From contig KV748212.1 of assembly GCA_001692895.1 (NCBI GenBank), forward strand, positions 1,052,428 to 1,116,427: DNA of 64,000 nucleotides. Direction: 5' to 3'. Below are positions 22,698 through 51,945 of this stretch, one piece after another. This stretch comes from Cenococcum geophilum 1.58 (taxonomy: Eukaryota > Ascomycota > Dothideomycetes > Gloniales > Gloniaceae). Made by a program: the position numbers and the translations under genes. Every line of letters begins with the position of its first letter. Within the stretch, counting starts at the first letter, position 1. Under the pieces are notes generated by a model. That model saw nothing but the letters and a program-made list of their open reading frames with translations, had not been told where the DNA came from and ran no database searches.

Positions 22698-22711
22698 CCG
22701 GGCTTATAACC
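22698..22711 (-). other. Primer-binding site of Copia-A
   Basis: On the minus strand GGTTATAAGCCCGG follows the LTR directly. It corresponds to the Copia-B site GGTTATGAGCCTGG with transition changes, and is complementary to the initiator tRNA-Met anticodon arm. Confidence 0.65.
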
Positions 22712-23163
22712 TGTTAATTTGCGTAAGCGGAGGTTAGAGGACGACAGGGTGAACGATGTAGTGAAGTAAGTGAAGTGGATGAACTTGATGTAATTAATAA
22801 TGTCTATCTACGGGGGATCGAGTCTCTATATACCTGGAAGACCCTAGTTCCGGAACGTCTACGTTCCGCCTCATATTCTAATACGTTACCTAATACGCTA
22901 GGTAATACGTTACCTAACACACTAGGTAATACGTTACCTAATACACTAGGTAATACGTTACCTGATACACTAGGTAATACGTTACCTAATACACTAGGTA
23001 ATACGTTACCTAATACACTAGCTAATACACTGGCTGATACCATCTGATACACTAGCTAATACACTAGCTGATACCATCTAATACACCGCGTAAAGCCGTA
23101 GGGTTCTTCCAGGGTGTTCTTATGTAATGCTTACATAAGCAACATCAGAGATCATCATTGACA
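22712..23163 (-). repeat. 5' LTR of Copia-A
   Basis: 452 bp, the same length as the 3' LTR at 6864-7315, and followed by the GCAAT duplication at 23164-23168. It carries the same 12-bp array, palindrome and TATATAG box on the minus strand. Differences from its partner are mainly A/G and C/T changes. Confidence 0.92.
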
Positions 23164-23198
23164 GCAATTGACCAATTGACACATCTAAAAGTCAAATA

Positions 23199-25439: not shown

Positions 25440-25900
25440 TTGAGGCCATTGGTAGGGTACCATATTTTGCCGATGCTTACGCTACTCGCTACTACTATTA
25501 AATTAGTATGGGCGATACGAAGGGACTTTATAGTATTAATGCTTAGCCTAAATATTAGTAGTGCCTATAACAACGTACCCTATAAGCGTCTCCTATATAT
25601 CCTTAGAGTAAAAGGCTTTCTAAAATGGATTATATAATTTATTTAAGGGTTTACAGGCTAAAAAGAAATATTACTGGTCTTTAGCGGATACTAAAGCCCC
25701 CCTATTGCAGTTGCAACAGGAATACTATAAGGATTACCCCTCTCGCCTATACTTTTCCTTTTCTTTATAAGCAACCTACTTAACTTCTTTAAGAAAGGGG
25801 CGACTTAGGGGATAGGCTTTATTAATAATATAAACCTAATTATATACGGGCTAATAGCCGTAAAGAATTGCAGAACGCTAGAGAAAGCTTATAATACCTA
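25440..25900 (+). pseudogene. LINE-X reverse transcriptase, first part
   Basis: SLNISSAYNNVPYKRLL near 25550 is RT motif A (families have LDISGAYDNV, so the catalytic Asp is Asn here). GIL*GLPLSPILFLFF near 25720 is the QGxPLSPILF motif with Gln turned into TAG. GFINNINLIIYG near 25820 is the FVDDxN catalytic box with both Asp changed to Asn. All changes fit C-to-T or G-to-A transitions. It is 5' truncated just before motif A and continues at 28023. Confidence 0.75.
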
Positions 25901-28022
25901 TTTTTTTTTTTTTTATATCCGATTGTATTATACTACGTACAATACTGCGCATGCAGCCTTTAGGCTATGGCGCTATAGTTCTATATACATGAATCCTTTC
26001 TAGGCAGCTTAACATGTACTAGTAGCTATGTCCTAGTAGTTTATAAACTCCTAAACTAGGAGTTTATAGTTCCTTAGTAATCCCTAAGTTCCTACAACTA
26101 CTAGGGAATAAGAAAACAGTAGGAAAAACTATGAAATCCTAATACCTGTCCCTGTCCTTTTGCAATTTATTCTGTCCTTTTACTCTCTAATATCTTTTTA
26201 AGAGCCTAGTAGGAGTTGCCTCCTTCTAGAATCCTATCTGTTTTATCTTCTATAGAATCTTTTTTACGTACAGTTTTAGCTGCTTTAAGAGTCTTATAGT
26301 CTTTACTATTAGTAAAGTATTTTTCTTTACAATTAATGTAAAGAGGGGTAGTATGCTGGCAAGGCTTGCCTGTTATTATACAGGTAGAATAGGAATGGTC
26401 TTTAGATAAATGTACAGCTGTATAGTATCTGTAGGCTCTAGTAGAGCACCTGTCTCCTATATGGCATAATTTTTGGTAGCTTATACACTGCGTAGTAGGA
26501 GAGACTTTAAGGTATTTTACTACCTTAGTGCTGTACCTGCAATTGATATCTCTTTTTACTTGAGGATTTCTTGTCTTTTTTCTTCGTTCTCTATAGTAAA
26601 AACTATAGAGCCAAATCTGGTCTATGGTTGTGTCTTTTTTTACTAGATGAGATCCATCTAGGTAGTCCTTATATCCTTATAGGATTAAAGGTCTTAATTC
26701 TTCTTTTAGAAGCTTAGAGCCTCCCTCTCCTAAAAAGGTAGGGTGGAAACCCTATAGGTATAAATTTAACTCTAGGGTTCTAGTTTTTTTGTTCTCTTTA
26801 AAAGGTAAAGCAGTTATACCAAATATCCTTATACTTAACTACGGAAATCTGCATTATACTCTTCTATAGTTATAAGGGGAATATTTTTGTTTCCCTTTAG
26901 TTCTAGCTATAGAACGCTAGCACTGGCTTTTCTACCTGCAGTTTTAATATGAATAGTAATTGACTTTTTTCGTATAGAGAAGGTTCTAAGGTAGTCCTTT
27001 TTCGTCTATAATTAGGTAACAGCTTCCTTCTTATAGCTGCTTTTTCTTAGTTCTAGTAGAAGGTTGTATTCTGCTGGTAAGACGGTATGGGTAGAGTTTG
27101 TAGTGTGGGGCCAGGTAGGGTGGGCATGTGTGGTGGGTCTTCTTTAGTCTTCTTGTTAGGTTTCTTTAGTATAGGCTATCCTGCCTTATGGATTAATTAG
27201 TTTTTACTCTCTTCTAACTAGTTCCTTTTAGGACTCATTTGCCTTTTCTTTTCTTTTTCTTTTTCTTCTTCTTCTTCTTATATAAAGGGCTCTTTCTCCT
27301 AATAGGTACTTGTCGTGTATAGTCTCACTTGCTATTTAAACTTATTCTTTTATTTCTTTTCTTTCTTCTTCCTTCTTCTTCCAGTCCTTTTATAGGCCTG
27401 GTTTAGGCTTTCTAGGGCGAAGCTTAGATGTTTTCTAAGGAAGGGGAATAGGAAGGGTTGAATAGAAAGGTCATTATTTAGCCGTACTATCCGTAGTAGT
27501 CGTTAGTTTTTATTATCTTTTTTGCAGGTTTTTTTTGGTTTTCTTTTTTAGGAGAAGACTAAGGATGTTTTTTTTTTCTCCTGTCTAAACGGGCCAGGGG
27601 AAGGAGAAGGGGGAGAAAAAGTAGATATAGAAATCCTCATCACTTAATTTCTATAGGAGGTTTTTTTAGACCTATTAGGCCTTGCATTTTATTATCTTAT
27701 AGGGGGGTTCCTAGTTTTTTACTACCCTTATACCCTTTCTCCTTACTAATCCTACTAGAAGATTTCTGGGGAATTAGGCTAAAAGGTAGTAGAAAATCTA
27801 GCCTCTATATTCCGTGGTTTTGGTTATTTAGTTTTGGTGTTCTGTCTGTTGGGGGAAAGGGGGTAAAACGACAAATAAATCCACCTCTAGCTCGCTAGGC
27901 AGTAAGAATTGGGTCTTAAAAGTTGGAAAATCGATTGTTTTTAATGGTAAGATGGGTATGCGTAAGTTTTGAAGTGTGGCGCTACCTTTTGGTAAGGTTG
28001 CATGTGTAGTGAAAGGTTTTTT
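25901..28022 (-). mobile_element. Half-LINE copy 2 (complete, 2.1 kb, ORF1 only)
   Basis: Minus-strand insertion into LINE-X. The T-run at 25901-25914 is the poly(A) tail, and 25901-26028 is the shared 3' tail. ORF1 starts near 27687, and the 5' end is at 28022 (AAAACCTTTCACTACACATG on the minus strand). The flanking duplications (25891-25900 and 28023-28032) differ only by one C/T. Because the duplication is found at both ends, the element is complete. It nevertheless lacks any endonuclease or RT. Confidence 0.85.
26235..27687 (-). pseudogene. Half-LINE copy 2 ORF1 (gag-like)
   Basis: The probable start ATG is at 27687, matching copies 3 and 4 (start context M-[LPQ]-x-x-x-R-S-KKK). An acidic/Ser-Pro-rich N-terminus, a Lys/Glu-rich (possibly coiled) middle and a C-terminal CCHC knuckle near 26450-26500 follow. 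The knuckle's GH pair reads as CH/ILY-like variants here because of transitions. The 3' end is approximate: a small indel moves the stop relative to the other copies. The frame is RIP-broken. Confidence 0.65.
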
Positions 28023-29480
28023 ATAACACCTATATAGAATAGGCAAGACGATATAGAGTTTAATTCTCACTAGAGAAGTACCAGCTAATCCATTTTATAA
28101 GAAAACGCAACCAATTTACAGATCTCTAGCATATAATTCGCATTTAAGGCTTTAGGGGTTAGCTAGTTTAGGGCCTAAGAGTATTAGGAGTATGGGTAGA
28201 CAGTAAGCTCTAGTAGAGCGTATATGCGGCCTAAGCAGCCCATAAGGGCTAAGCATAGTATATTATATTATCTAGGATCGTTAATTCTATATAGGGCCTA
28301 TACTTCTAAAGGTCACGCCTACTATATATAGCAGTTGTCCGGCCAACCATGACGTATAGGTCTAGTATTTAGGCTATTAGAGAATCTAAGAAAGGCCCCC
28401 CTAAATCGCTCCTTAAACTACTCTAAAAGGTCTAAACAGCCTACCTCTGGAGTATAATAGGCGGATATAAGCGAACGGCTATAGCACTGCTTAAAAAGGA
28501 AGCTAATATTCCCCCCCTATAACTATATATTAAAGCCGCTGCAATATAAAGGGCGTAAAAAAAACGCAACTCTAATATTATAAAGTATATTAAGACACGC
28601 CTAAATAAACTATAGAGGGATCCTAGGGCGCCTTATAGGAGAACAAACTAATAACCCCAAAGTAGGGAAGATATATTAGAGAAACAGGTAAAGAAAGTAA
28701 AAGAAGAATAATGCTACTCTAGGGCCCAGGCCTATATAAAGGAGGAAGGGAGACGCGTAAGAGGCCAGTAAGGATAATAGTAAGAGAGAGAAAAGAGCTA
28801 AAGTAAAGTATAAAAGAACGCTAGGAAACTAACTACCGTAATGCAATACTAGCTGAACTAATGCTAGAGAGGTATATAGGAGTTAAAGGTATAGAGGTTA
28901 ACTAAGGCAAGAAAAACCTAAGCCGTAGCATGGTTAACGCCATAGGGGGTAAATACTCTAGGGCTCTAAGAAGGCCTAATAAAGGCAGAAAATATAATGG
29001 TAATACTCCTAAGAACAGGAGTAATAGGACTAAAAGACTGGCTCTACTAGGTGGGTGTCCTAGTAGGTAGCCCAAGATATGAATATAGCTGGCTAAGACA
29101 GACACTAAAGCACGTAATATTGCTATGCCCCTTATATACTAACCAAGAAGTAATACTCTTAATAGCTAGCATAGAGAACTATAAGACACTGCTCTTAATA
29201 TAAAAAGGCCTTAAGGCGGTTACCCAGTAGCTTATTAGCTAAAATGTACTAAACCAGTTCTAGGTTATAAAGGAAATGGCAATAGAAGGTAGGGGGGCGA
29301 GCAACAGGTACCCCCTAATGACTCTATAGCAGTAGAGTAAAGTTTACAATACTAGCGCGTCCGTAGGCTTGTTACGGCAGCAGTGGTTCCCAAGGAGGTC
29401 AAAAAGTAAGGTAGTAGGAGTACTATAGGTAACTCGCAGGCGCCTTACAGGCGCCTTATAGGCGAGTCCCAAAAGGCGGG
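28023..29480 (+). pseudogene. LINE-X ORF2, C-terminal part with zinc finger
   Basis: This resumes the RT exactly after the insertion (AYNT|Y, ARRY, then EKYQLIHFIRKRNQFTDL near 28074-28125). The thumb/connection region includes YKRTAIALLKKEANIPPL near 28470. The C-terminus has RQTLKHVILLCPLY near 29095-29135, the H..x..LLCP half of the C-terminal CCHC finger of Tad-type ORF2; its first Cys positions read Tyr, as C-to-T/G-to-A change would give. No RNase H is seen. Confidence 0.65.
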
Positions 29481-29660
29481 GAGATGGATTACGGGGTTTT
29501 CTTAAATAGAGTTTTCTCCCTATATGTATATAAGGAGTAGTCCGCGTGGGCCCAATAGGGATCCAAATCGGACGTTAAGCAATGAATTATTAATTAATGC
29601 CTTTTAGCCCGCCTAGCGAAACGTATCGCGCTAAAGATAGGGCTAGATAAACATTAGTAA

Positions 29661-30073
29661 TATATTATAATTACGATAGATATCTACATACCATCTTTAT
29701 AGATAGCCGTAAATATAACCTAGCCCACCCTATAATAAACTGCCCTTAATAGAGCAGCCCTTAAGGCCCCATCGTTTCGGATAGGTATAGTCTCTATATA
29801 GGCGGCCTATATCCACTCCTTATTATAATCCACCCCAGCCTCTAAAAATATCTTAACTAGCAGCTAATATTTAACTATACGTAGGTCTTAAGGTACATTA
29901 GATAGCAACACTAGACTTAAGGCCACATCTATACTTAGAACTAAGTTCGTACCATCTAGTTTCCGCCTATAAAGTAGTATAATAAGTCGTTTAAGATTAT
30001 AGCCGCAGTTCTGCGTATAGTTAAGCTAGGACAAACTCTACGAGTTTACGGCAACTATATACCCCCTTTCCGC
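29661..30073 (-). pseudogene. Unrecognised RIP-degraded minus-strand frame, downstream part
   Basis: A minus-strand frame that reads in register with only TAA/TAG stops. It joins, across half-LINE copy 3 (30086-34267), with a frame at 34268-34600: reading INYIMDAERGYIVAVNS crosses the duplication ATCCATTATATA. So one older coding unit was split by that insertion. I do not recognise the family; a weak resemblance to helical repeat proteins is not enough for a call. Confidence 0.35.
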
Positions 30074-30225
30074 ATCCATTATATATATATATATATATAT
30101 TTAGGTCCGTTGTATTATACTACGTATAATACTACGCATGCAGCCTCTAGGCTATAGCGCTATAGTTCTATATACATGAATCCTTTCTAGGCAGCTTAAA
30201 ATATACTAGTAGCTATATCCTAGTA

Positions 30226-32308
30226 CGGAGGACCGCGCAATAAAAGATTTCTCCTTCCTTTTTTAGAAAAGCGTGGTTTTGGTGCTAAGACCCCACTAAA
30301 AATACCGACTTTTTAACTTCGAGCTTATAAAAAGCAACTCTACACCGACTTTTTGATAGAATATATTCACTTAATCGCTCGTAATACACTCTATACTCCT
30401 TCTACTATCTTTTGTACTGTTTTTTCGGCCCAAAATGCCTTCCTATGGCCTTGCAACAAGGGCGCAGGCTGTAGTAATGCGAGCCCTGGGTACACCCTTA
30501 AAAGTAATCACTTGTGTCACCGGAATTAGCTCTAAGCACATCGGTAACCTCCTAAAAAAGGCAGTAGAGAATGGCTGGCGTGTAGATTGGGTCCTCTTTA
30601 ATAACCACCTTAAAGATAAGCCCCGTCTAGGGCCTAAAAAGAAAATTACCCCTAATCTTAAGCAAAAGGTTATTAACGCTATTACGTGCGATCGATATGG
30701 GCGTAAAAAAAGTGTTAAAATACTTACTCGCGAAACAGGTATCTCTCCATCAGCTATTTAAATTATACTTAAAAAGCACGGCTTCCGTAAGACAAAGCCA
30801 ACAAGAAAGCCTAGATTAACTTTAGCCATAAAGGCTAAACGGTATAAATTTACACTAGCTCACCGCAATTAGACATTAGAAGATTAGAAGGCTATAATTT
30901 AGACGGATAAAATAAGTATCGTTTTAGGCCATCGTTAAGAGGGCTACCGAGTATAGCGACGCCCATATAAGGCCTGCACGCGCAGCTGCGTACGAGAGCG
31001 GTGGAAGGGGTACTCTGAGTTTATGTTTTGGAGTTGCTTTATATACGACTTCAAAGGCCCTTATTATATTTAGAAGCCTTAAACAAAAAAGGAATTAGAA
31101 GAGTTAAAATCTATTATTAAGAACTAGAATTAAGCTCTAGAGCCAGAGGCGCATTAGGCCTAGAAGGAATATTAAGCTGCTAAAAGAAATGCATATAAAC
31201 TGCGTTATAAGAAGCGTATGGGCGGAGCCCCTGCTAAATAGAGGTTTACTACATTATACGGAGCTTTTACTCGATTAGATGGAGGTGGAATTGACTAGTG
31301 GCGATATTTAACAAATATTTTAATACTAAAACTTCTTCCGTTTACCCAGAGCCTTACTTACTTAAATTTAGATACGATCGTATAGGAAGACAAGGCTACT
31401 TCTTATACTATAAAGATTTACTAGGTCTACTTTAACGCCTACAAGATTCAGCGTCTTATTTGGCTAGGTAATTCACCTAATCTAAATATAATTAAGCCTT
31501 GTTGGGGTTACCTAAAACGGGCTATTACAAAAAGGGGCCCACCTACTTCCCGTGCAGCTGCAGAAAAGGCCTAGCTTAAGGCTTGGCGCGATCTTAAGTA
31601 GTAGCAAATTCAATAGTGGATTAAGAGGATCCCTTACTATATTTAGAAGATTATAGAGCTAAAAGGAGGCAATAATTATAGAGAAGGAGTAGAGGACAAG
31701 CGGTGAAGTAGAAAGTAACTCTATGAGGAAGCCAATCGCAAGCTCCCTACGATCGTTAAGGTGCTTTAAACGGGCTACAAGACGTTGCGCAATTACTATA
31801 GTCTACCTAACGCCTATCTGCAATTCTTCCTTCCTATGCAGAGCTGTGAGGAAATTGAGGAGATTACTGAGGAAGAGTGGCAAAAAACAGTTAATATAGT
31901 CATTCCAAATCGGCGTCAAAATACTTAAGGCCCTGGCTTAATTGCAGATAGACAGCTTCATAATCAAAGACTCTAAAGGAACGATTACAATTAGGTGGTT
32001 AAACGGGCAGAGAGCTAAGTAGAGAGCTAGGTAGAGAGCTAGGTAGAGGGCTAGGTAGAGGGCCAGGAACAGCAGAGGTAATTAAGGCCTTAAAAAGCTC
32101 GAAAGCCTTTAGAATATAAGGTGCAATAGAACGAGGTTAATCAGGTAAATATTAAACGGTAAAACACCACGTTTTAGAAGCTATATAGATAATATATTAG
32201 TATCAAAAGCTTTAATTAAGTTGATTAAGTTAATTTAGTGGGGTCTTAGCACCAAAACCACGCTTTTCCAAAAAAGAAAGGAGAAATCTTTTATTACACG
32301 GTCCTCCG
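30226..32308 (+). mobile_element. Tc1/mariner transposon with ~76-bp inverted termini
   Basis: The left end CGGAGGACCGCGCAATAAAA and the reverse complement of the right end CGGAGGACCGTGTAATAAAA begin inverted repeats that match for about 76 bp, to ...GGTGCTAAGACCCCACTAAA. A TA dinucleotide is duplicated (30224-30225 and 32309-32310). The empty site CCTAG-TA-GTTTATAAAC is seen in other half-LINE copies (about 26034 and 39605), which proves the boundaries. Confidence 0.95.
30435..31769 (+). pseudogene. Tc1/mariner (DDE_3-type) transposase, RIP-broken
   Basis: 445 codons in one unbroken frame apart from TAA/TAG stops; the first 108 codons are intact. The N-terminus carries the helix-turn-helix DNA-binding domains (LATRAQAVVMRALGTPLKVI, then a second HTH ending KKHGFRKTKPTRKPRL). 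The catalytic domain shows *TDKISIVLGHR near 30898 (first Asp; the usual next Glu is Lys) and EDKATSYT near 31390 (second Asp). WLGNSPNLNIIKPCWGYLKR near 31470 is the normally W-x-G-[NS]-S-P-D-L-N-x-I-E-x-xW segment. The third catalytic acid is therefore Lys and the preceding Asp is Asn, both G-to-A changes. KRGPPTSRAAAEKA is typical of fungal members. It is inactive even if the stops were ignored. Confidence 0.9.
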
Positions 32309-32513
32309 TAGTTTATAAACCCCTAAGGGTTTATAGCTCCTTAATAAAACACTAAGGTGCTACAACTACTAGGGAATAAAAAAACGGTAGGAAAAACTAT
32401 AAGAAATCCTAATACCTATCCCTATCCTTTTACAATTTATTTCTATCCTTTTACTCTCTAATATCTTTTTAAGAGCCTAGTAGGAGTTACCTCCTTCTAG
32501 AATCCTATCTATT

Positions 32514-33890
32514 TTATTCTTCCATATAATCTTCTTTACATACTAGTTTAGCTGCTTTAAGAGTCTCACAGTCTCTACTATTAGTAAAGTGTTTTTCTTT
32601 ACAATTAATACAAAGAGGGGTAGTATACTAGTAAGGTTTGCCTATTATTATACAGGTAGAACAGGAATAGTCTTTAGATAAATATGCCGCTATATAGTAT
32701 CTGCAGGCTCTAGTAGAGCACCTATCTCCTATATGGCCAAATTTTTGGCAGCTCGTATACTGCATAGTAGGAGAGACTTTAAGGTATTTTACTACCTTAG
32801 TAGCTGTACCTGCAATTAATATCTCTTTTTACTTAAGGATTTCTTATCTTTTTTCTTCATTCTCTATAGTAAAAACTATAGAGCCAAATCTAGTCTATAA
32901 ATTATATCTTTTTTCACTAAATAAGATCCATCTAGGTAGTCCTTATATCCTTATAGGATTAAAGGTCTCAATTTCTTCCTTTAAGAGCTTAGAGCCTCCT
33001 TCTCCTAGAAACGATAGGGTAGGAACCCTATAAGCTATAATTTAAACCCATAGTTCTAGTTTTTGTTCTCTTTAAAAGGTAAAGCAGTTATGCTATATTT
33101 CATTATATTTAACTAGGAAATCTGCATTATACTCTTCTGTAGTTATAAGAAGGATATTTTGTTTTCCTTTAGTTCTTCCTATAGACCCTAAAACTGGCTT
33201 TTCTGCTTACAGTTTTAATACAAATAGTTAATTAACTTTGTTTCGTATAGAGAAGGTATCTAAAGGTTAGTCCTTTTAGTCTATAATAAGGACTAGCTTC
33301 CTTTCTTATAGCTGCTTTTTCTTACTTCTAGTAGAAGTAGAAGGGGTAGGAGATAGTATTAGTAAGGAGGGCAGGGGGGATAAGGAAGGGAGGTTCTTCT
33401 TTAGTCTCTCTGCGTAGGTTTCCTTAGTAGGAGCTACCTCCTTACGAAGAGCTCTTACTTCTTCAACTAATCCTTATAGGATATCTTTTGCCTTTTCTTT
33501 TCCTTTTATAAAAGGATTTTCTCCTGCTAGAATACTCCGTGTATAGTCCTCTAGCTATTTAACTTGTTCTTTTTCTTCTTCTTTTTCTTCTTCTTCTAGC
33601 CCTTTATAGGCCTGTATTAGGCTTTCTAGGGCCTTTTATANGTNTTATTTAGGAGAAAGGGGAGGGAAAGATATACTAGGTATNCCAGCCGTAAAAGTNA
33701 TNANTTTTATTGTCTTTTTTGCAGGTTTTTGGTTTTCTTTTTCGGTAGAAAACTAAGGATGTCCTCTTTTTTCTCCTGTCCCAAATAGGCCAAAAGAAGG
33801 AGAAGGGGCAGAAAAAGTGAATGTAGTCGTAGACTCATTATCACTTATTTCTATAGGAGGTTTTTTTTTATGCCTATTAGACTTTGGCAT
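32514..33890 (-). pseudogene. Half-LINE copy 3 ORF1 (gag-like)
   Basis: Minus-strand frame from the ATG at 33890 (MPKSNRHKKK context) to the TAA at 32514-32516, about 459 codons. The knuckle cluster corresponds to 32580-32770 (SCQKFGHIGDRC, then CQHTT-like and INCKEKHF-like segments). Internal stops are mainly TAA/TAG; N bases lie near 33639-33702. Confidence 0.7.
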
Positions 33891-34267
33891 CTTATAGGGG
33901 GGTTTCCTAGTTTTTTCTACCCTTATACCCTTTCTCCTTACTAATCCTACTAAAAGATTTCTAGGGAGATTAGGCTAAAAGGCAGTAGAAAGACTAGCCC
34001 CTATTAGTATTAGTATTGGTAGTAGTGGTAGTAGTTTTAGTGTTCCTATCCGTGCCTCGCCTATAAGCTAGGACCACCCCTAAAGAAAATTTTCTGTTAG
34101 GATAAGGGGGTAAAATAATAAATAAATCCACCTCTAGCTCGCTAGGTAGTGGGAATTAGGTCTTAAAAGTTAGAAAATCAATTATTTTTAATAGTAAGAT
34201 AGGTATACGTAAGTTTTAGAGTGTGGCGCTACCTTTTGGTAAGGTTGCATATGCGGTAAAGGTTTAT

Positions 34268-34600
34268 ATCCATTATATAGTTAATGCCAAGCCGTCCTAG
34301 CACCTTTATCTTCTTATATATATTTAACTATACGCGGGCTAGTATATTCTATATAGCTTTATATACCTATAGCGCTAGTACCTTCTCACATTCTACTACC
34401 TAATGGATAACTTTCTAAATCGCCTACTCGCGTAGTAAATCGTTTAGTTATCTACGAAATAAAACATATAGGATACCGTCCTTAATAATAACCTACTTAA
34501 AAGTCTACTTAATAGTATTAAGTCTCTCCGCAATAATGCCTAAGCTAATAATAAGCTGTATATCTTTTCGCGGGTCCATAGCGCTCGCAGAGTTATACCA
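34268..34600 (-). pseudogene. Unrecognised RIP-degraded minus-strand frame, upstream part
   Basis: Upstream portion of the frame described at 29661-30073, read on the minus strand and broken only by TAA/TAG (for example KDIQLIISLGIIAERLNTIK near 34560). The family is not recognised. The 34600-35130 stretch further right shows no feature I can name. Confidence 0.3.
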
Positions 34601-35129
34601 CGCCGTATTTATGGCATACCGCTATCATATATCGCGTCCCATCGTAAAAAACAGTCTAGTATCCTAAATAGGGAATAGTGGTATTTAGAATCCTATGCTT
34701 AGTATAACAGAGAAGTGGCGCGACATTAGCAATAAGTAGAGTCTCCTAGCCTAACGTAACGCGATCTAGCGCAAATTAGCGCAAAACGCAACGGGTTACG
34801 CTATCTAGCGCGTTAGTGTCCACGGACATCGCCATACTCTTACTATACTCCTCCCATCTTAACTAGCTTATAACGTAGCATGAGCTATAAACACTACTTC
34901 GAACATACGGTTCTACATAGATGTTATTTTTAGCTCCTTTCTAACTAAACTATAGCAAATTACAGCTTAATGCGGCAATTTATAAATAAGCTCTATTTAG
35001 CAGTAATATAGAAAGTATAGGACTAAAGTAAAAGGCATGGGCGGTCTAACCTATTATAAATAATATTGTCTAAGACAACAGAAATGGAAGAAGGGTAGAT
35101 ATAAGGGCGTTAATATTAAAGAGACAAAT

Positions 35130-36216
35130 AATAATACACCCTTACGCCATTAAAGCTTAGAGGAGTATTAGATAGCCTATTATAGGGCTGAGCTAAAGCA
35201 ATATAATAAGTGGCCACTTATACAATATATAGACGACAATACACCATTATACTATTAAACCGTAGAAGGGCATTATATAACTAATTATAAGGCCGAATTA
35301 AAGCAAGGTAATAAGTGGCCACCCATATAAGCTCTAGGCAATAATATTATTAATAAGCTAAACAACGGGGCTACAGATATGCACTATAATAATAATTCCG
35401 CAACATTTAATAGGGTGCATAACCTAGTAATAGTTAAGACCAATTAGTAAACTTTAACTAAAACATCTATAGACGTCTTTCGGACTAAAACATTTAAAAA
35501 GGCTACTAGCTACGCTATAGGAAAGCCTCTAGGACGGAACTAAGGAAATCCGCAAACTATAAACGATACTGCGGTAGTATACAATATTATACCGCGTATT
35601 AAGCGTACTAGCAGTACACTAAATAAAACACCTCCCCTATTTTATCCATTTAGCAGTAAGGCAGAATACGTATAGGTCTTATAGTAGGTAAGCTACAGGA
35701 CTTTTAACCACGCTATTAACGAGTAGTTTAACGATATTAGGCTTTAGGGAGTATTTGCTAACTATTTTTCTTACTAGAGTGCTAATAATATTAAAGCAAA
35801 ACTACCTTTAAAACAGATGTAATCTAAAAGTAATTAACCGTAGTAGATTAAAATAATTATAACCGTAGGGGACTAGTAGCTGCTGGTACGTCACCGAAAT
35901 ACTCTAGATATTATATCCTTTCTTATTAGTCACGGCCCTTTCTAAAAAGATATAACTTTCTCGCTAGTAAGGCAGTACTTGTTAGTAGGAATAAGAATAT
36001 ACAATAAGCTTAATACAGTAAACTAGTAGTAGGAGACGCAAGAGCAGCTACCGCTTAGCGCAACCGTAGTGCCAATTATATTAGCTAGTAATAAGACCTA
36101 ATTAATATAACACGCCGGCGGCAAGAAAGCATAACCGCTCTATATTTTAATTAGAAACATTAAACTGCATATTTAACAATCCGTAAATTAACTAGCCCTA
36201 TTACTACTTATATACC
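35130..36216 (+). pseudogene. Plavaka-type (CACTA-related) transposase fragment
   Basis: One plus-strand frame, in register with TAA/TAG stops only. It contains FYPFSSKAEYV near 35640, the Y-x-P-F-x-S-x-x-E/D-W/Y opening of Plavaka transposases. ETQEQLPLSATVVPIILASN begins near 36031 and KTxLIxHAGGKKAxPLYI follows near 36095, then a hydrophobic LLLLIYLPV. This matches the well-known core (GATVVPIILASDKTQLT, xxGxKxAWPVYLTIGNI, LLGYLPV). The N-terminal zinc finger is not visible and the C-terminal half is missing where LINE ORF2 sequence begins at about 36216. Plavaka elements are common in basidiomycetes and occur in some ascomycetes. Confidence 0.7.
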
Positions 36217-39200
36217 TCCCGGTCTATATACCTAGCAACTAAATAATATAACTAGCAGTGCAATATTATCTCTAGGGCTATTCTAGAACTAGAAATAGAC
36301 CTCACTTTTATACTAATAGGAGACTATAACCTATACCATATATAGTAGAACGCGTTAGCTAAGAATCTAACTAGAGAGGTTAAAGAACTAGTAGACTGGC
36401 TAGACAAATACAACTACTAACTACTAAATTTAGATAAATAGGAAGGGACCTTCTATAAATCTAATATAAGGGAAAAGTCTATTATAGACCTAGCCTTCTA
36501 CTTAGGAAACTTTTAAGAAAATACCTAGGATAATTAGACTATAATAGAAGATATAAGATCTAACCATAAGACTATAACATTTTCTCTATTTACTAGAGAG
36601 ACGCAAAGATACTTAAACCCTCTTTAAGAAACTCCTTTCTCTATAAAAAAGGTAAACTAGGAGCTTTTCTCTACTTCTTTAAAAGAGTAAGTTCTTAAGC
36701 TAGAACTAGAAGCGAAGCTTTTAGTACTAAAAAAACTAGTAGGAGAAAACCCCTATATAGAGATAGGAGATAAAGGTCCCCTAGCCTCTTTAGAAGATTC
36801 TTATAAACCTAGGGATAGAAGCTTAAGTACCCTAGTAGATAATCTAGTAATAGATCTTACTAGCGGTATAAAGCTAGCAGTAGAGAAAGCTATCCCTAGA
36901 TCTAAAACCTGTGAATTCTCTAAACTATAGTGGAATAAAGAGCTTCTAAAGAAAAGATAGAAAATAGTAAAACTAGGAAGACTTTAAGAGGAATAACCTA
37001 CTAGAAGTTCTAGACTAGAAGCCTATAAAAAAGCTAAAAATTAATACTTTTACATAATAAGAGAAGCTAAGACTAGCTGCTAGAATAGCTTTCTAGAAAA
37101 AGTATAAGGAAGGGAGGTCTTTACTGCCCTAAAATATATAAAGGAAAGAATATTATAAATAATCCTAAGTCTATAGTATAGTAAAGACGGGACTACTAAA
37201 TTAGTAAAAAGCTTTAAGGAACAGTGTAAGGCTTTTATAACTACTCTATTCCCTAAACCCCCCCCCTTCTACTAACCCTATAGAGTGGAAGGACTATATA
37301 ATAGACAATAAATAGGAATGGCTAGAACTAGAGAAAATAGAAGTTAAATAAGTAATTTTCTCTAGCTTTAATAAAAAGGCTCCAGGACTAGATAGGATAT
37401 CTTTTATAATCCTATAAAAGGCCTACCCTATTATAAAAGATCTTCTATATAGAATCTATAGGATTTTATTTATCCTAGGCTATCAGCTAAAGGTCTAGAG
37501 AGAAGCTTAAGGGGTTATTCTCCCTAAAGTAAATAAGGAGGACTATTCCTTACCAAAGTCCTATAGACCTATCTCCTTACTAAACTACCTAGGAAAGACT
37601 CTAGAGAAGATCTTTACTACTAGATTAGGATATCTAGCTAGTACTACTAGCTTACTTTAAGATTCTTGACTAGGAAGAAGAAGACAGCGGTCCGTAATAA
37701 ACGTAGTCTTACTACTTCTAAATAATATCTAATCTAAAAATAGTAGGAAAAAGGCTAGATAAAGAATAGCTACTATATTATTCCTAGATGTAAAAGGGGC
37801 TTTTAACTATATCTCTAAAAACTAGCTTCTATCTATCTATAAGGAACTAGGACTACCTATAGCGTTTATATAATAGGTAGCTACTTTCCTTAGCAATAGA
37901 AAGCTACAGCTCTCCTTTAATAGGCAAATATAAGAAAAAGTAGAACTAGAAACAGGGATACTATAGGGATCACCTATATCCCCTATTTTATTTCTACTAT
38001 ATATACGCAATATCTGCAGCATATAAACAGAAGGAGCCTATTCTCTTAGCTATATAAACGATTTTGCAATTATAGTTACTTTAAATTCAGCTAAATCCAA
38101 TTACAAAAAGCTAGAGAGAATAGCGCTAGAGCTAATATCTAAAGCTAAGGAAGCTGCTATTAGTTTCGATGTTAGTAAAATAGAGCTTATACACTTCTAT
38201 AGTAAACGCACTACTATAGAAGAAGGGTTAAAGCTAGGAGATATAGAAATATCCCCTAAACCCCTAGTTAGGTAGTTAGGGGTATTCCTAAACTCTAAGC
38301 TTACTTTTAAACAATATATAGAAATACAAATCTTTAAAGTAAAGGCAGCCTTCTATTTAATTAGAAGACTAGGCAATATAAAGAGGTCTATCTCTATAAG
38401 CCCTACAACAGCTCCATATAGCTTACATTACCACTATAGCAGACTACGGAGTATAATGCTGGTGGAAAAGCAAATCTTAAGACCACCTACTAGATAGGTA
38501 CCAATCTCTATAAAATAAGGCCCTAAAACTAGTTCTAGGAGCGTTTAGAGGATCTCCTAGTCAAGCTATAGAGATTAAAGCCTCTATTCCTCCCCCTAGA
38601 ATTAGATTAAAAAAGCTTTACAATAGCTATGCATTAAGAATCTTAAAATTTAAGGAAAACTACGCAATTAAGAAGGTCTATATAGAAGAGATTAATAAAG
38701 ATAGGGACGAATTAGCAGCTAGTTCTAGCTCTAGTTCTAGCCCTAAAAACTCTACTATAAAGTACCTCTTACAGCCAAAGACACAGCTACTATCTTTAGC
38801 CTCTAGAGTTTAGTAGCTAATTTAAAACTAGAAAATAAAGAGAATCTCTCTAGATTAGTAAAAACTATAATCTCCTCCTATTTCTGCATCCTTTTCTATC
38901 TAGTAGAAAATTTATAAGAATCCCTAGAGTGGGACCTAGTAGATATATACTATATAGGTAGCTTTAAAGACAATAAATTAAATATAGCTGCTTAAATGAA
39001 ATAGGGGAGAGAAATAGTATTAAATACGCAATAAACTGGAATCTAGGACCCTATATAGAAGTTATAAACATAGAGATCTATACAGTCTATAGGGCCCTAG
39101 AATACCTAAAATAATAAAGACTAAAAGAGAAATAAGTCTATATCTTTATAGATAGCCAAGCGGCTATTAAGAGATTATAGCTTAATTCTCTTATAAGAGG

Positions 39201-39471
39201 GCAAGAACTAGTCTTTAAAATTACGCAAAGCTATTCCTATTTAGCTAGTAAGGGGATCTCTATTAACTTTTACTGGGTTTCTAGCTACCTAGGAATCTAT
39301 AGGAATAAAATAGCAGATAAGCTAGCTAAAAAGGGCCTCTTTAGAAGAAAACTATATTCTTCTTATACCTCCCTAGCCTATATAGGGAGAGCAGCAAGAG
39401 AAAAGATACTAGAATAGTAGAAAAATAACTAGCAGCAGAATAAGAATAAAGGAAAACACTATACTAGGATC
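36216..39471 (+). pseudogene. LINE ORF2 with endonuclease, RT and RNase H (RIP-broken)
   Basis: The order of domains is that of a fungal LINE ORF2. The endonuclease shows LIGDYNLYHI near 36320 (GDxNxHH) and SIIDLAFYLGNF near 36480. RT follows from about 37380: SFNKKAPGLDRISF, SYRPISLLNYLGKTLEKI near 37560, FLDVKGAF near 37790 (motif A), GILxGSPISPILFLLYI near 37950, and a YINDF-type catalytic box near 38050 where YIDDF is expected. RNase H follows: IFIDSQAAIKRL near 39150 and FYWVSSYLGIYRNxIADKLA near 39270. The frame is split by TAA/TAG and a few shifts. The C-terminus is cut at 39471 by half-LINE copy 4. Confidence 0.8.
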
Positions 39472-41617
39472 TTTTTTTTTTTTTTTTATCCGATTGTATT
39501 ATACTACGTACAATACTGCGCATGCAGCCTCTAGGCTATGGCGCTATAGTTCTATATACATGAATCCTTTCTAGGCAGCTTAATATNTACTAGTAGCTAT
39601 GTCCTAGTAGTTTATAAACTCCTAAACTAGGAGTTTATAGTTCCTTAGTAAACCCTAAGTTCCTATAACTACTAGGGAATAAGAAAACAGTAGGAAAAAC
39701 TATGAAATCCTAACACCTGTCCCTGTCCTTTTGCAATTTATTCTATCCTTTTACTCTCTAATATCTTTTTAAGAGCCTAGTAGGAGTTGCCTCCTTCTAG
39801 AATCCTATCTATTTTATTCTTTTATAGAATCTTCTTCACGTACTAGTTTAGCTGCTTTAAGAGTCTTGCAGTCTTTACTATTAGTAAAGTGTTTTTCTTT
39901 ACAATTAATATAAAGAGGGGTGGTATGCTGGCAAGGCTTGCCTATTATTATACAGGTAGAATAGGAATAGTCTTTAGATAAATATGTAGCTATATAGTAT
40001 CTGCAGGCTCTAGTAGAGCACCTATCTCCTATATGGCCAAATTTTTGGCAGCTTATATACTGCATAGTAGGAGAGACTTTGAGGTATTTTACTACCTTAG
40101 TAGCTGTACCTATAATTAATATCTCTTTTTGCTTAAGGATTTCTTGTCTTTTTTCTTCGTTCTCTATAGTAAAAACTATAGAGCCAAATCTGGTCTATAG
40201 ATTGTGTCTTTTTTTACTAGATAAGATCTATCTAGGTAGTCCTTGTATCCTTATAGGATTAAAGGTCTTAATTTCTTCTTTTAGAAGCTTAGAGCCTCCC
40301 TCTCCTAGAAAAGGTAGGGTGGGAACCCTATGGGCTATAATTTGAACCCAGGGTTCTAGTTTTTATTCTTTTTGAAAGGTAAAGTAGTTATGCTAAATAT
40401 CCTTATACTTAACTAGGAAATCTGTATTATACTCTTCTATAGTTATAAGGAGAATATTTTGTTTCCCTTTAGTTCTAGCTATAGACGCTAGCACTAGCTT
40501 TTCTACCTACAGTTTTAATACAAATAGTTGATTGACTTTGTTTCGTATAGAAAAGGTATCTAGAGGTTAGTCCTTTTCGTTTGTAATTAGGACTAGCTTC
40601 CTTTCTTATAGCTGCTTTTTCTTACTTNTAGTAGAAGTAGTACTCCTACTAGAAGGAGAAGGGGTAGGAGATNGTAGTNGTGGGGANNGTAGAGAGGACG
40701 AAGTAGGGAGGTCCTTCTTTAGTCTCTCTGCGTAGGTTTCTTTAGTAGAGGCTACCTCCTTACGGAGAGCTCTTACTTCTTCTACTAGTCCTTTTAGGAC
40801 CTNATTTGCCTTTTCCTTTTCTTTTTCTTCTTCTTCTTCTTCTTATGTAAAGGGTTTTTCTCCTAATAGGATACTTCGTGTATAGTACACTAGCTATTTA
40901 ACTTGTTCTTTTATTTTTTCTCTTTCTTCTTCTTTTTCTTCCAGCCCTTTATAGGCCTGGGTTAGGCTTTCTAGGGCGAAGCTTAGATGTTGTTCTAGAG
41001 AAGGGGAATAGGAAGGGGAATAGGAAGGCATATTAGCCGTACTATCCGTAGTAGTCGTTGGTTTTATTGTCTTTTTTACAGGTTTTTAGTTTTCTTTTTT
41101 AGGAGAAGACTAAAAATGTCCTCTTTTTTCTCCTATCCTAAACGGGCCAGGGGAAGAAGAAGGGGGAGAAAAAGTAGATATAGAATCCTCATCACTTATT
41201 TCTATAGGAGGTTTTTTTTTAGACCTATTAGGCCTTAGCATTTTGTATCTTATAAGGGGGTTTCCTAGTTTTTACTACCCTTATACCCTTTCTCCTTACT
41301 AATCCTACTAGAAGATTTCTGGGGAGATTAGGCTAAAAGGTAGTAGAAAATCTAGCCTCTATATTCCGTGGTTTTGGTATTTNGTTTTNGTGTTNCTNTN
41401 NNTNCCTCGCTTATAAGCTAGGACCACCCCTAAGAAGAATTTTCTGTTGGGGGAAAGGGGGTAAAACAACAAATAAATCCACCTCTAGCTCGCTAGGCAG
41501 TAAGAATTGGGTCTTAAAAGTTGGAAAATCGATTGTTTTTGATGGTAAGATGGGTATGCGTAAGTTTTGAAGTGTGGCGCTACCTTTTGGTAAGGTTGCA
41601 TGTGTGGTGAAAGGTTT
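39472..41617 (-). mobile_element. Half-LINE copy 4 (ORF1 only)
   Basis: Minus strand. The T-run is at 39472-39487, the shared tail runs to about 39599, ORF1 is at 39814-41241, and the 5' end is AAACCTTTCACCACACATGC at 41617. The structure matches copies 2 and 3. I find no matching duplication: the left flank belongs to a LINE with RNase H and the right flank to a different LINE (LINE-Y). The insertion therefore involved a target deletion or later rearrangement. Confidence 0.8.
39814..41241 (-). pseudogene. Half-LINE copy 4 ORF1 (gag-like, zinc-knuckle protein)
   Basis: 476 codons from the ATG at 41241 (MLRPNRSKKKPPIEISDEDS) to the TAA at 39814-39816. The N-terminus is basic, then acidic/Ser-Pro-rich. 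The central part is rich in Glu and Lys. The last 83 codons are open and hold SCQKFGHIGDRC (CCHC), then CIIIGKPCQHTT and INCKEKHF. This is the best-preserved knuckle region of the four copies. N bases lie at 40627-40687 and 41383-41404. The expected role is coating of element RNA; it is broken by TAA/TAG upstream of the last 83 codons. Confidence 0.78.
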
Positions 41618-44210
41618 AATAAGGGACTTTAGACTCTATTAAAATGGAGTAAAAAAGCAAGCGTAGCAAAGGCGGACCCCTATTTATTAGACCTTAGGAG
41701 GTTTACTAAGGATCCCTTAACAGACAATAATATTATAAAGGCTGATATCCTTGCAGCTAAGTTTTTTTCTAAAACTAAAATAGCAGACCTTAGCGATATA
41801 GAGATAATAAGGGAATAAAATGTGCTTAATATTAGCCCTACTATCTTAATAGAAGAAATCGGTAAGCTTATTAGGAGTCTTCTAAATAGAAAAGCCCTAG
41901 GGCTAGATGGTATACCAAATAAGGTTCTTAAAGTGGTTACCCCAGTTATTATAAAAGATTTAGCAGAAGTAGTTAGTTATTACTTTGCCAGCGGAATAAT
42001 ACTAGAAAGCCTTAAAGAATCCATAACTATAGTGTTACGTAAAGAAGGAAAGAAAGACTACTCTCTCTTAGGCAGCTATAGACTAATTACCCTTAAAAAT
42101 ACGCTAGTAAAAGTCCTAGAAAAGCATGTAGCTAATATTATATCTAAGGCTGCGGAGGAGTATAGGCTACTCCCTTAGAACCAGATGGGAGTAAGGCGTA
42201 AATAATCCACACTATTAGCGGTAGGACTGCTTAGCTCTTATATATAGACGGCGTGGCGAACGCGCTGTAGGTATATAGTGTTAATGCTAAGCCTAGACTT
42301 AGCAGGGGCATTTAACAACGTCTTCTATAAAAGGCTCCTCCATATTCTAAAAAGAAAAGGCTTTTTAAAGTGGCTTATAAACTTTATATAAAGCTTCCTA
42401 ACAGTATATAAAACCCGTATTAAGTTTATAGGATATAAGAGCAACTAGATCCAGACACAGACAGGCATCCCCTAGGGGTTACCCTTATTACTAATCTTAT
42501 TCCTCTTTTTTATATTAGAGCTATTAGAGGAATTCTAGTGCCCTAATAGCGGTACGCTGAGGTTTAGCTTTGTAGACGACACAAACCTTATTACCTAGGG
42601 GGACTCCGCAGTAGAGAACTGTTAACAATTAGAGGCCGCCTATAACTACTATACTGTATAGGCAAATCGACACGGGGCGGCGTTCGCCCCTAAGAAGTAC
42701 TAGCTTATGCACTTTACAAGGCAACAGTGCTACGCTACCGCAGACCTTGCGTCTACCGTATATATCACTGGCTGCGAGACAGCCCTCTAGAAAACCAGCA
42801 TGCGAGTCCTAGGGATCTAGGTAGACCCTAAGCTCCAATAAAAAGAATAGGTTAAAAAGGCCGCGAGTAAGGGCTTAGTAGCCTTTAAAGCGATATTAAG
42901 GATTACCGCGTCTATATAGGGCCTATTAATGCGCCGCTTACGCCTCCTATATACAGCCACCGTCCGACTAGTAATGATATATATAGCGCCTAAGTGTAGA
43001 GAGTACAGGATAACGGCGGAACGCTAGCGAAAAGCTTACTTAAACCACTATAGAAAGTCCAGAACTAGTGTCTCCGTAGGGTTATAGGGGTATACTAGTA
43101 AATACTAATAGCTGTAATAGAGAAGGAAGCGGCTATTCCCCTAATCCAACTCTATATTAAAACGACAGCCCTTTAAAGAGCTGCTAAGATGGCCTCTAAT
43201 AGGGTAGAAAAGGAATTAGTAGAGGCACTTAACGGTATCTAGAATATATTAGTAAAGCGCCGGCAAAAAACAAAACGGCTACTAGTACTATTAGAAGCGC
43301 TTAGGGAACGCGTAAAGGACTATAAAAATAAGATATAAGGCTTCCTCGTGCACTAGAAGGACTATATAGAGCGGGAAGCTGTAATAAACCCCCGTAAGCG
43401 TGGCCAGCGGAACGCCGGCAGAGTGTAGGCGGAGCGCCGCTACCGTATAGGAGGTCACCAGCACTAAAGGCAGGCAACCACCTTTATCGCGAAATGGGCA
43501 GATTTAGAATGGCGATAACAGTAGTAGGTAAAGGCTAAAGACCGCATAGAAACCACGTGGAAGACCCTATAGGGGAAACCTACAATCCTATTATACGAAG
43601 GCCTAATAAAAGCAGAGGCTATAGCACTATTTCTCCTTCGTATAGAGGTAATAGGGCTTAATGTATGGCTTATATCCGTCGGTGTACCGGCGGTTCTCCC
43701 GCGGTGCGAATGTGGCTAGATAAGGCAGATAGTCCACTATGTGCTGCTCCAGTGTCCACACTACTAAAGGGCGGACTTTATAGCAAAATGCGCCTCTAAA
43801 CGCCTTTAGGATATTTTAAATAATAAAGAAAGCGCCTAAGTAGCAGCAAAATGGCTAGTATAGTCAGGTGTTTTACCCTAGTTTTAGGCAGTAAAGGTAA
43901 TGGATGTAGAGGATATAAGTGGATACCAGCCCTTTTAAAGCCTAGAGGACTGGTAAAAGAATAAGGATAAAAGGATAAGGAAAGAAGGGGGCAGAGTGAG
44001 ATTGTCCGCGAAGCGCGGCCAGTTGGCTTAATATGCAGACTTGAAGGCAGGTAGAAGGCGAGTCGCCGGCGCTCCGATGTCGGAACGCTGCCATCTCTCC
44101 AGCGCGGCCTGAGGTGGGGTTTTCTCTAAGTTAGAGTTTTTCCTATAGAAGGTATTAGCCTGCGTGGACCCACTAGGGGGACCGGGACGGGCGGTAAATT
44201 GAATTTATTA
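41618..44210 (+). mobile_element. Tad-like LINE (LINE-Y), 5' truncated
   Basis: Plus-strand RT through C-terminal zinc finger and a 3' UTR that ends ...GCGTGGACCCACTAGGGGGA..., AT-rich to about 44210. It is homologous in arrangement and 3' end to LINE-X. It abuts Copia-C sequence at AATATAAGGCT. Confidence 0.72.
41700..44100 (+). pseudogene. LINE-Y ORF2: reverse transcriptase and C-terminal zinc finger
   Basis: The first 118 codons (41822-42178) are open and hold LLNRKALGLDGIPNKVLK and ITIVLRKEGKKDYSLLGSYR (RT fingers). The frame then shows MLSLDLAGAFNNV near 42280 (motif A, with intact first Asp) and GIPxGLPLLLILFLFF near 42465. The FVDD box, SFVDDTNLIT near 42570, is intact. The C-terminus has PRCECGxIRxIVHYVLLQCP near 43705-43770, the CxC...H...C finger of Tad-clade ORF2. 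No endonuclease (5' truncated) and no RNase H. Stops are TAA/TAG. Confidence 0.8.
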
Positions 44211-45595
44211 TTAATATAAGGCTAATAATTGAGGATGGACCTCTCTTGCAAATATAGTATTCCAAAACAGCTCTGGAAGTATAGAAACTGTTAAAAAATC
44301 TCTATAGCCTAAAAGGGTTTAGCTCGGAATTCTTAATCTGTAAAGAGCTTTTTGAGACCACCTTATCTAGATACTCTTCTATGGAGGAGTATTTAAATAA
44401 AGTAAAGCAACTTACCGACCAATTAAAAGCCAAAAGCATAGAATTGCCAAGTTAGGTGATTGTCGCTTGGGTTTTAAATAACCTAACTAGTCCTTATAAG
44501 GGATTTGTTACAATGGTTACCCAATCTTATAGAACCAATTCTAGTACCATTAACTTAGAAAACCTATTTTTTAACTTGCTGGACGAATCTAGAAGACAGG
44601 TATCTAAAGATCAGGAAATAGCCTTGGTTATAGGGTCTAGACGATGACCTAGGACTAATTAGATAAATCAAATACATAAAAATAAGTACTGCAAGAAGTG
44701 TAGAACAACTACGCATTCTATAAAGGACTGTTTTTATCTATTTCCTGAAAAGGCCCTAAAAGGCTTTAAAACCAAGCACCAATATGAGCCAAAACCTTAA
44801 GAAGCTCTCGTGTCTATAAATACTAGTGATAACTATCCTAGTAATGCAGAAGAAGACGATTTCGACATCGATCTTGATCTGATGGATACCGATCAGGTAC
44901 TTATTACTAATTAAACCCCTAATTAAAAAGGAGCTAATTTCGTATTAGACTTAGGAGCCACTAAGCATCTAATAACCAAAAAGGAATACTTTACAAGCTA
45001 TAAAGATTCCTATGGGAAAATTGGTTGGGGAACCGATGCATTAATTGATTATATTGGAATCGGAAATGTTGAATTGGTAAACAAAGGAAACAAAATTGTA
45101 CTAGAAAACTGCAGATATGCACCCAATTTTCAATACAATCTTATCTCTGTCAGTAAGCTAGATCAGCTTGGCTATGAAATCATAGTAAAGGGCGGTTAAG
45201 CCTATATATACAAAAACGAACAACTGCTTATCTTAGCCATGGGAAGAAACTCCCTGTACTATATAGATATAGTACAAAACAATATGCCTAGTGAAAAGAC
45301 TAAGAAGGTCAAAAGCAAGTAAATAAATAAAATTGAGCTAACAAACAAAATTAATTTGCTTGAACAAACAAATAAAATTAATTTGCTTGAATAAACAAAC
45401 AAAATCAATTTGCTTGAACAAATAAATAAAATCAATCTGCTTGAACAAGCAGATAAAATTAAACTTTGGCACTAAAGAATGGGCTATATAAATCCTATTT
45501 CACTACAAAAGACTCTAGGTCTTCGGTTAAATATTCCATTTAACGAATGCGAAATTTATATAGAATTAAAGCTGACAAGTCAGCGAAATAAAGAA
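44211..45595 (+). pseudogene. Copia-C gag, protease and integrase start
   Basis: The Gag helical domain (WVLNNLTSPYKGFV near 44466) is followed by an intact CCHC knuckle CKKCRTTTHSIKDC at 44690-44731, spaced C-x2-C-x4-H-x4-C. The protease box again reads LDLGATKHLI (44945-44975) rather than D-S-G-A-T. The integrase N-terminus (RMGYINPIS near 45478, where His of HHCC is Tyr) precedes the LTR insertion at 45601. Stops are TAA/TAG. It is clearly the same protein as in Copia-B. Confidence 0.8.
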
Positions 45596-45600
45596 ATTAC

Positions 45601-48730: not shown

Positions 48731-48807
48731 CAGAGAGCGCGATGGGAATAAGCGTATAAACAGCTTAATATAGGAAAAAAAGAAAACCATGTTCACAGAC
48801 AGCCTAT

Positions 48808-51490: not shown

Positions 51491-51544
51491 GGTAGAGGTT
51501 GCGTCCGGTGACGTGGTCCTCAGGGCTATATAGCCTGCGGCGCC

Positions 51545-51935: not shown

Positions 51936-51945
51936 GGAGGATCGA

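Follow-up and report, generated by a model that had tools for sequence, protein, structure and literature searches.

Derivatives of long interspersed nuclear elements (LINEs) that encode only the first open reading frame (ORF1) are known from mammals and flies. The mammalian case, HAL1, was reportedly first described by Bao and Jurka in 2010. It is summarised in two accounts as a LINE-1 (L1) derivative with ORF1 only, ending in poly(A) and flanked by target-site duplications (TSDs), which depends on L1, has nearly 2,100 copies in the human genome and arose several times independently (PMC5322556, PMC5753468). In Drosophila, HeT-A is reported to encode only Gag, which is under apparent negative selection, to lack the enzymes for its own transposition, to obtain its reverse transcriptase (RT) from another element and, as has been suggested, to derive from the complete element TAHRE (PMC5537684). 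The present analysis concerns a 64,000-nucleotide stretch of the genome of the fungus Cenococcum geophilum 1.58 (contig KV748212.1, positions 1,052,428 to 1,116,427; hereafter the window), which contains four copies of an element termed the half-LINE. These 2.1-kb elements are very probably ORF1-only, non-autonomous retrotransposons of the type without long terminal repeats (non-LTR), with a single origin in a LINE of about 6.5 kb in the same genome, with spread in trans and with ORF1 retained under selection.

The half-LINE resembles HAL1 in having ORF1 only, poly(A) and TSDs, in deriving from a LINE, and in a need for the RT and endonuclease of a full LINE, which in the half-LINE would be met by its parent family. 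It differs in that HAL1 descends from L1, with several origins according to the accounts above, whereas the half-LINE fits a single origin; moreover, the half-LINE has a parent ORF2 of the endonuclease-RT-RNase H type, an ORF1 with three zinc knuckles, a sharply bounded 3' stretch of about 120 nucleotides (nt) in common with that parent, and mutations resembling repeat-induced point mutation (RIP). An ORF1 with three zinc knuckles, together with RNase H in ORF2, is unlike L1. Hence HAL1 proper, as an L1-derived family, was rejected as an identity, given the partner's three-zinc-knuckle ORF1 and its ORF2 with RNase H (E 1.1e-4, under the curated cut-off). The earlier note on this DNA, made from the letters of the window, had named HAL1 as the closest parallel; HAL1 is indeed among the nearest, and HeT-A belongs beside it. 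HeT-A, with TART and TAHRE, is likewise described as coding for a single protein, Gag, under apparent negative selection, with RT from elsewhere, as would also hold for the half-LINE and its ORF1. However, HeT-A goes to chromosome ends (PMC5537684) and half-LINE insertions are dispersed in contigs with TSDs, so the half-LINE is not an element of the HeT-A kind.

The fungal comparisons are more distant. EKA genes of powdery mildew are described as 3'-truncated LINE ORF1s read as effectors; like the half-LINE they are fungal and derived from a LINE ORF1, but the source does not, as far as it was available, describe them as a mobile family (PMC4641428). Eg-R1, also from powdery mildew, is presented as a non-LTR element with a small open reading frame, linked to a 74-amino-acid peptide, with genomic copies lacking poly(A) (PMC6022598, PMC6022647); unlike the half-LINE protein, that peptide is not an ORF1, and the half-LINE does carry poly(A). 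A survey of Cochliobolus transposons reports non-autonomous LTR- and DNA-type elements, and the portion of its text available mentions no ORF1-only LINE (PMC4112212). The earlier note knew of no fungal counterpart, and there was no fungal ORF1-only LINE family among the literature matches listed, a search that had most subscription journals and Repbase outside its scope and does not show absence from print.

All four copies that the earlier note had placed in the window are confirmed, the three long ones on the minus strand and the one at the window edge on the plus strand:

25901-28022, minus strand: complete half-LINE copy, running from its 5' end at 28022 to its poly(A) at 25901
about 27687-26246, minus strand: ORF1 of this copy, start codon placed by eye, riddled with stops
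26240-26268, minus strand: deletion junction, lacking the LINE's ORF2 of about 4 kb (half-LINE position 1755/1783; the junction pattern has 387 matches in the genome)
25901-26040, minus strand: 3' tail common to the half-LINE, the LINE and an element with a variable number of tandem repeats (VNTR); 96-100% identity among the best 40 of 1,339 candidates
30086-34267, minus strand: complete half-LINE copy, interrupted by a nested Tc1-like transposon
39472-41617, minus strand: full-length half-LINE copy without a detectable TSD
1-1104, plus strand: 3' part of a half-LINE, cut at the window edge; its ORF1 match starts outside the window, at G000:C37:1051812

The copy at 25901-28022 lies between ATAATACCTA and ATAACACCTA, at 25891-25900 and 28023-28032, and the copy at 30086-34267, which consists of a 2.1-kb half-LINE plus a nested transposon of about 2.1 kb, has ATCCATTATATA at both ends. 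The TSDs claimed for these copies, of 10 bp and 12 bp, are therefore present, the longer exactly and the shorter with a single C/T difference. In the sense direction, the half-LINE begins with a conserved 5' end and a 5' untranslated region (UTR), continues with ORF1, which has 458 codons in copy L083, and a short 3'UTR, and closes with a conserved tail that leads into the A-rich 3' end; the 22 full-length copies measured are 2,090-2,159 bp long. The genome searched, which is rich in repeats, amounted to 177 Mb in 162 contigs, and the best 40 of 1,678 first-look candidates for the whole element were scored, giving 55 listed matches. Near end-to-end matches make up 32 of these 55, the query's own place included and the others of the 32 at 80-89% identity, such that the 2.1-kb form is the standard form among the best whole-element matches.

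The ends of these copies are those of insertions. Ends were readable in 23 copies, namely the three long ones of the window, seven from the whole-element search and 13 fetched later, and 19 of them had a TSD score of at least 9, all 19 scoring 10 to 14, whereas mismatched pairings of 5' and 3' flanks between copies reached 9 in 16 of 506 cases. Insertions are spread over many contigs, within contigs and with differing TSDs, and the half-LINEs have diversified into several subfamilies. Genome-wide, the pattern of the ORF2-less junction has 387 matches with at most two mismatches (two for a reversed-pattern control), compared with 220 for the corresponding LINE 3' junction (control, zero), a figure that counts LINE 3' ends of any length, 5'-truncated LINEs included. 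Hence the proposal that the 2.1-kb units are whole insertions, rather than truncations, stands, and the outcome that would have undone it, most copies having ORF2 between ORF1 and the tail, was not found. The standard copy shares with other ORF1-only LINE derivatives both the presence of ORF1 without ORF2, although ORF1 is not open in the scored copies, and the poly(A) and TSDs typical of LINEs.

As the earlier note had advised, a search was made for a complete LINE that matches the half-LINE in 5' end, ORF1 and tail and also has an ORF2, and one was found. This element of about 6.5 kb, L069, has in common with the half-LINE the 5' end (86-87% identity), the C-terminal half of ORF1 (78-83%) and the tail. 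Its ORF2 contains RVT_1 (E 4.4e-27) and Exo_endo_phos_2 (E 4.8e-9) domains and starts in overlap with the ORF1 stop (ATGA); the element has its own 14-bp TSD, and stops are present in both reading frames. With the further LINE ORF1 regions L085, L086 and L087, it places the source of the half-LINE in a LINE of the same genome. At the protein level, half-LINE and LINE ORF1s share 57-65% identity along most of the protein for three LINEs; for L069 the figure is 80%, over the C-terminal half. The start region of ORF2 gave 107 first-look candidates, the best 40 of which were scored at 92-100%. The partner's ORF1 has three zinc knuckles, and by its domain order the family may be Tad1- or I-like.

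Several features of the half-LINEs are shared in a way that suggests one origin. The ORF2 junction is common to all nine half-LINE sequences aligned across it, and about 180 bp of 5'UTR is missing from 24 of the 24 half-LINEs covering that region (eight further aligned copies do not reach it) while being present in four of four LINEs. In the ORF1 tree, the four LINEs sampled form a separate clade with support 1.0. The pattern spanning the boundary between ORF1 and ORF2 has 15 exact matches in the genome; 11 carry the LINE allele at a marker codon, nine of them at listed ORF2 loci, and four carry the half-LINE allele, none at a listed ORF2 locus. Two of these four were placed, one (C4:2613031) 55 bp from a half-LINE junction, and the other (C11:118785) within an 87% match to half-LINE ORF1. 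This test covers nine of the 40 listed ORF2 loci, the other 31 not matching the pattern and being uninformative. On these sequence comparisons, the common deletion of ORF2 and the common deletion in the 5'UTR suggest that the half-LINEs arose once.

The 3' end is where half-LINE and LINE are most alike. Across 20 half-LINEs and 12 LINE tails (two from the same locus), identity between the two groups is 96-97% in the approximately 120 nt before the A-rich end, as against 74-80% in the 3'UTR just upstream, and 88% in the last 25 tail columns, A run included. This stretch is probably a 3' recognition module. Thirty of the best 40 tail matches were fetched, comprising 14 half-LINEs, 13 matches that continue into LINE sequence and three short matches, one at a contig end. 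The shared tail is in accord with mobilisation in trans by the partner LINE, for which it is indirect support.

The protein encoded by ORF1 has three zinc knuckles in its C-terminal half (CX2CX4HX4C and two variants), read from the alignment. Most half-LINE copies retain the pattern in common with the LINE; some have lost single cysteines. No ORF1 domain exceeded the Pfam cut-off, a PDB profile search with ORF1 gave no match, and the predicted structure of the C-terminal half, from nine sequences, was unusable, with a predicted local distance difference test (pLDDT) score of 36. The reading frame is now in decay, the three long copies of the window being interrupted by 16, 19 and 10 in-frame stops. 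Among 30 aligned ORF1s, columns with C and T have T in 37% of cells before A, 33% before G, 13% before C and 7% before T, and columns with G and A have A in 39% of cells after T and 32% after C, a RIP-like pattern. Stops common to copies within half-LINE clades fall at codons that read CAA, CAG, CGA or TGG elsewhere, and a TGA is present in only four of the 92 best-scoring ORF1 matches. Because RIP hits the same CAA and CAG codons in all clades, and in LINEs, the stops are uninformative on the decay of the reading frame. The family looks inactivated at present, at least in the scored copies.

Selection before this inactivation was sought by separating changes in single copies, which mostly postdate insertion, from shared changes, which mostly come from source elements, with no reconstruction of ancestors. 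Thirty-two copies were aligned, of which 27 entered the test of synonymous changes (L071, win25901, L018, L037 and L034 were dropped for long branches or many indels) and 30 the analyses of indels and RIP context (L071 and win25901 dropped). The C-terminal half comprises codons 191-458; the split at codon 191, where the largely gap-free alignment begins, was chosen post hoc and not planned. With RIP contexts excluded, 31 of the 48 variants in at least three copies are synonymous in this half, against 15.1 expected (none of 20,000 simulations was as high), compared with 20 of 58 singletons, against 18.7 expected (Fisher p 0.003 for shared versus single). The excess persists without CpG sites (26/38, expected 11.6) and when any one of three clade groups is left out, and in the same filtered half 17 clade-fixed changes are synonymous and four are not, versus 22 and 57 for singletons (p 2e-5). 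Indels agree, as those in at least three of the 30 copies are in frame in 10 of 10 cases in ORF1 and in one of 10 in the UTRs; within ORF1, the in-frame fraction is 4/8 for indels in two copies and 16/89 for private ones. As the synonymous excess lies in the C-terminal half, the constraint concerns the half with the zinc knuckles. Judged from these patterns of substitution, ORF1 was under purifying selection after the loss of ORF2, with constraint demonstrable solely in the C-terminal half once RIP-context sites are excluded. The earlier note's remark that an RNA-binding protein appears to have been kept, for which it proposed testing whether ORF1 is open and constrained, is hence upheld for constraint on the C-terminal half outside RIP contexts, but not for the N-terminal half, which appears neutral, nor for an open frame, which none of the 92 best matches has.

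The same tail is also found on an element of a different kind:

12652-15250, plus strand: VNTR element of 2.6 kb, with a 35-bp VNTR at 14171-14466, the LINE/half-LINE 3' tail and poly(A); TSD TTACACCAAAG

This element has no open reading frame of at least 100 amino acids. Its tail is about 97% identical to that of the LINE and half-LINE, its body is unrelated to them in sequence, and 40 of 524 candidates for that body were scored as matches, the query itself among them. The body is GC-rich, and the element sits in an AT-rich repeat, with an unfilled counterpart at about 53378-53398. SVA elements are GC-rich and have poly(A). SVA and LAVA are described as non-autonomous VNTR-composite retrotransposons mobilised in trans by a LINE (PMC4432496, PMC7353768), and the element at 12652-15250 is like them in being non-autonomous and in its VNTR, but unlike them in its unrelated sequence and in a 3' end that is the LINE's own tail. 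By this analogy, it is an SVA-like VNTR composite and a putative second passenger. A related VNTR element extends from 49925 to at least 51822 on the minus strand, with 37-41-bp repeats at 50729-51492, a second array at 51550-51822 and the same tail at 88%.

One further locus, L088 (G000:C3:3371950-3372900), is a chimera in which the 5' part of the VNTR element is joined to LINE ORF1, followed by ORF2. Such a chimera is to be expected if the LINE enzyme switches between VNTR and LINE RNAs, and this one looks like a single template switch. The alternative that the VNTR body is the 5' part of a LINE subfamily was rejected, as the chimera matched the whole query in one of the 40 scored places. 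Three of the listed LINE 3'-junction matches, on C10, C20 and C92, follow a VNTR body 0.6-1 kb further downstream, either as chimeras or as neighbours; the C10 piece is LINE sequence.

The mechanism proposed for the half-LINE starts from a LINE of about 6.5 kb that would have lost the whole of ORF2 and about 180 bp of 5'UTR, most likely once. The resulting element would be transcribed from its own 5' region, the ORF1 protein may coat the half-LINE RNA that encodes it, and the LINE's ORF2 protein would recognise RNAs by the 3' stretch of about 120 nt, copying the half-LINE RNA into the genome in trans by target-primed reverse transcription. The copies would then have been inactivated by RIP. 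Since ORF1 was kept, the protein presumably helped the RNA encoding it. The coding-free VNTR RNA can apparently use the tail, and hence a half-LINE that retains ORF1 would seem to gain from it in cis, for instance through the packaging of its own RNA. It is rather unlikely that one 3' tail is the hub of a three-tier guild made up of the LINE, the ORF1-only element and the coding-free VNTR element; in such a guild the half-LINE would be more than a cheater, supplying an ORF1 protein usable by others, and the family would operate as a divided retrotransposon, the RT being provided by one element and a large share of the RNA-binding protein by another.

A number of results weigh against a once-derived, trans-mobilised element with a selected ORF1. 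No open ORF1 exists among the 92 best-scoring genome matches, a list drawn from 1,211 candidates that favours intact copies; three have one stop, and no copy has an open codon at hotspots 109, 195 and 273 in clade C, or at 195 in clade B. In the N-terminal half, 20 of 69 variants in at least three copies are synonymous, against 22.2 expected, with no sign of constraint. When RIP contexts are left in, clade-fixed changes split much as singletons do (50 synonymous and 93 not versus 54 and 124; p 0.40), the unfiltered test of shared changes against singletons likewise gives no difference, and the filtered contrast over the whole of ORF1 is weak (41 and 60 versus 42 and 108; p 0.04). Even within the C-terminal half, the RIP-context clade-fixed columns set aside comprise one synonymous and nine not, variants in exactly two copies look neutral (3/10 synonymous, expected 3.6), and transversions alone, although in the same direction, are few (4/8 shared synonymous, expected 1.3; P 0.028). 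Much of this is what would be seen if the LINE had spread the half-LINE through the common tail as an inert passenger with ORF1 a functionless leftover, in the manner of the VNTR element, which spreads with the same tail and no open reading frame of at least 100 amino acids. Such an explanation is nevertheless quite unlikely, since it leaves unexplained the doubling of synonymous changes among shared C-terminal variants (31/48, where 15.1 were expected) alongside neutral singletons, and the 10 of 10 shared ORF1 indels that are in frame. Selection for a host function, the host having taken over ORF1 as a gene, would explain the constraint differently and has a precedent in the EKA effectors, which are thought to derive from LINE ORF1 (PMC4641428). 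It is very improbable, because the constraint shows in scattered copies that have retrotransposon ends and is not confined to a single locus, the 92 best matches include no open frame, and EKA candidates are described as losing the C-terminal half (PMC4641428), the half retained here.

Other points concern descent and insertion. Only four LINE ORF1s were compared, so LINE and half-LINE may have exchanged ORF1 unseen, and groupings differ somewhat between the whole of ORF1 and its C-terminal half, a hint of mosaic copies. Both would suit half-LINE subfamilies that arose repeatedly, or by recombination, from several LINE lineages, with the constraint on ORF1 having acted on LINEs. This is unlikely in view of the one ORF2 junction (9/9), the one 5'UTR deletion (24/24) and the separate LINE clade (support 1.0), and of the boundary matches, which coincide with listed ORF2 loci in nine of the 11 cases with the LINE allele but in none of the four with that of the half-LINE. 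The copy at 39472-41617 has no TSD on flank comparison (best score 6), four of the 23 copies overall lack a TSD of score 9, and on contig C37 two listed places, 1011117-1013243 and 1013244-1015341, adjoin each other head to tail. A TSD-less copy and a head-to-tail pair could arise from independent chance internal deletions in dead LINEs, multiplied by segmental duplication, but that account is barely credible, being refuted for most copies examined by differing TSDs in 19 of 23 copies over many contigs, and opposed by the single junction pattern with its 387 matches. For the tail as a recognition module, folding offers no help, as its predicted RNA structure is no more stable than that of shuffled sequence (z -0.4 and -1.1); the 5' end of the half-LINE likewise showed no excess stability. 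Descent from a single LINE deletion, with spread in trans and selection on ORF1, thus remains the preferred reading.

Element classes of other kinds were also considered. An LTR element, a terminal-repeat retrotransposon in miniature (TRIM) or a DNA element as origin was rejected by the A-rich ends, the TSDs and the LINE parent. A short interspersed nuclear element (SINE) does not correspond to a 2.1-kb half-LINE with a constrained ORF1, although no search was made for a polymerase III promoter.

The remaining features of the window adjoin the half-LINE copies or lie between them:

30224-32310, no strand assigned: nested Tc1-like DNA transposon, with 77-nt terminal inverted repeats at 30224-30300 and 32234-32310 and a degraded transposase on the plus strand
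36254-39471, plus strand: part of a partner-family LINE that spans ORF2 (endonuclease-RT-RNase H), at 80-88% identity to L069, with no ORF1 or 5' part matched

The Tc1-like transposon has an HTH_Tnp_Tc3_2 match (E 5.7e-8) and was inserted just upstream of the half-LINE's conserved 3' tail. The RNase_H match in the ORF2 region, at E 1.1e-4, is below the curated Pfam cut-off. This region flanks the half-LINE copy at 39472-41617 on one side; on the other, at 41618-42700, the copy is abutted by an RT-like sequence that reading by eye assigns to another LINE family. Large AT-rich repeats occupy 6864-23164 and 44212-54489, in both orientations and with 12/24-bp tandem arrays (GTATCA... units), and their arms reach 1.6 kb at 93%.

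The description of the half-LINE as a HAL1-like element, in which the RNA-binding half of the protein was selected after the loss of RT, is right in its main points. With a fungal case that stems from another kind of LINE, the loss of RT with retention of an RNA-binding protein looks like a repeatable evolutionary route. The visibility of constraint in just the C-terminal half names the part of ORF1 on which to focus. The half-LINE and the protein-free VNTR passenger, in turn, offer a natural comparison of what an element gains from its own ORF1 protein when the enzyme comes from elsewhere.

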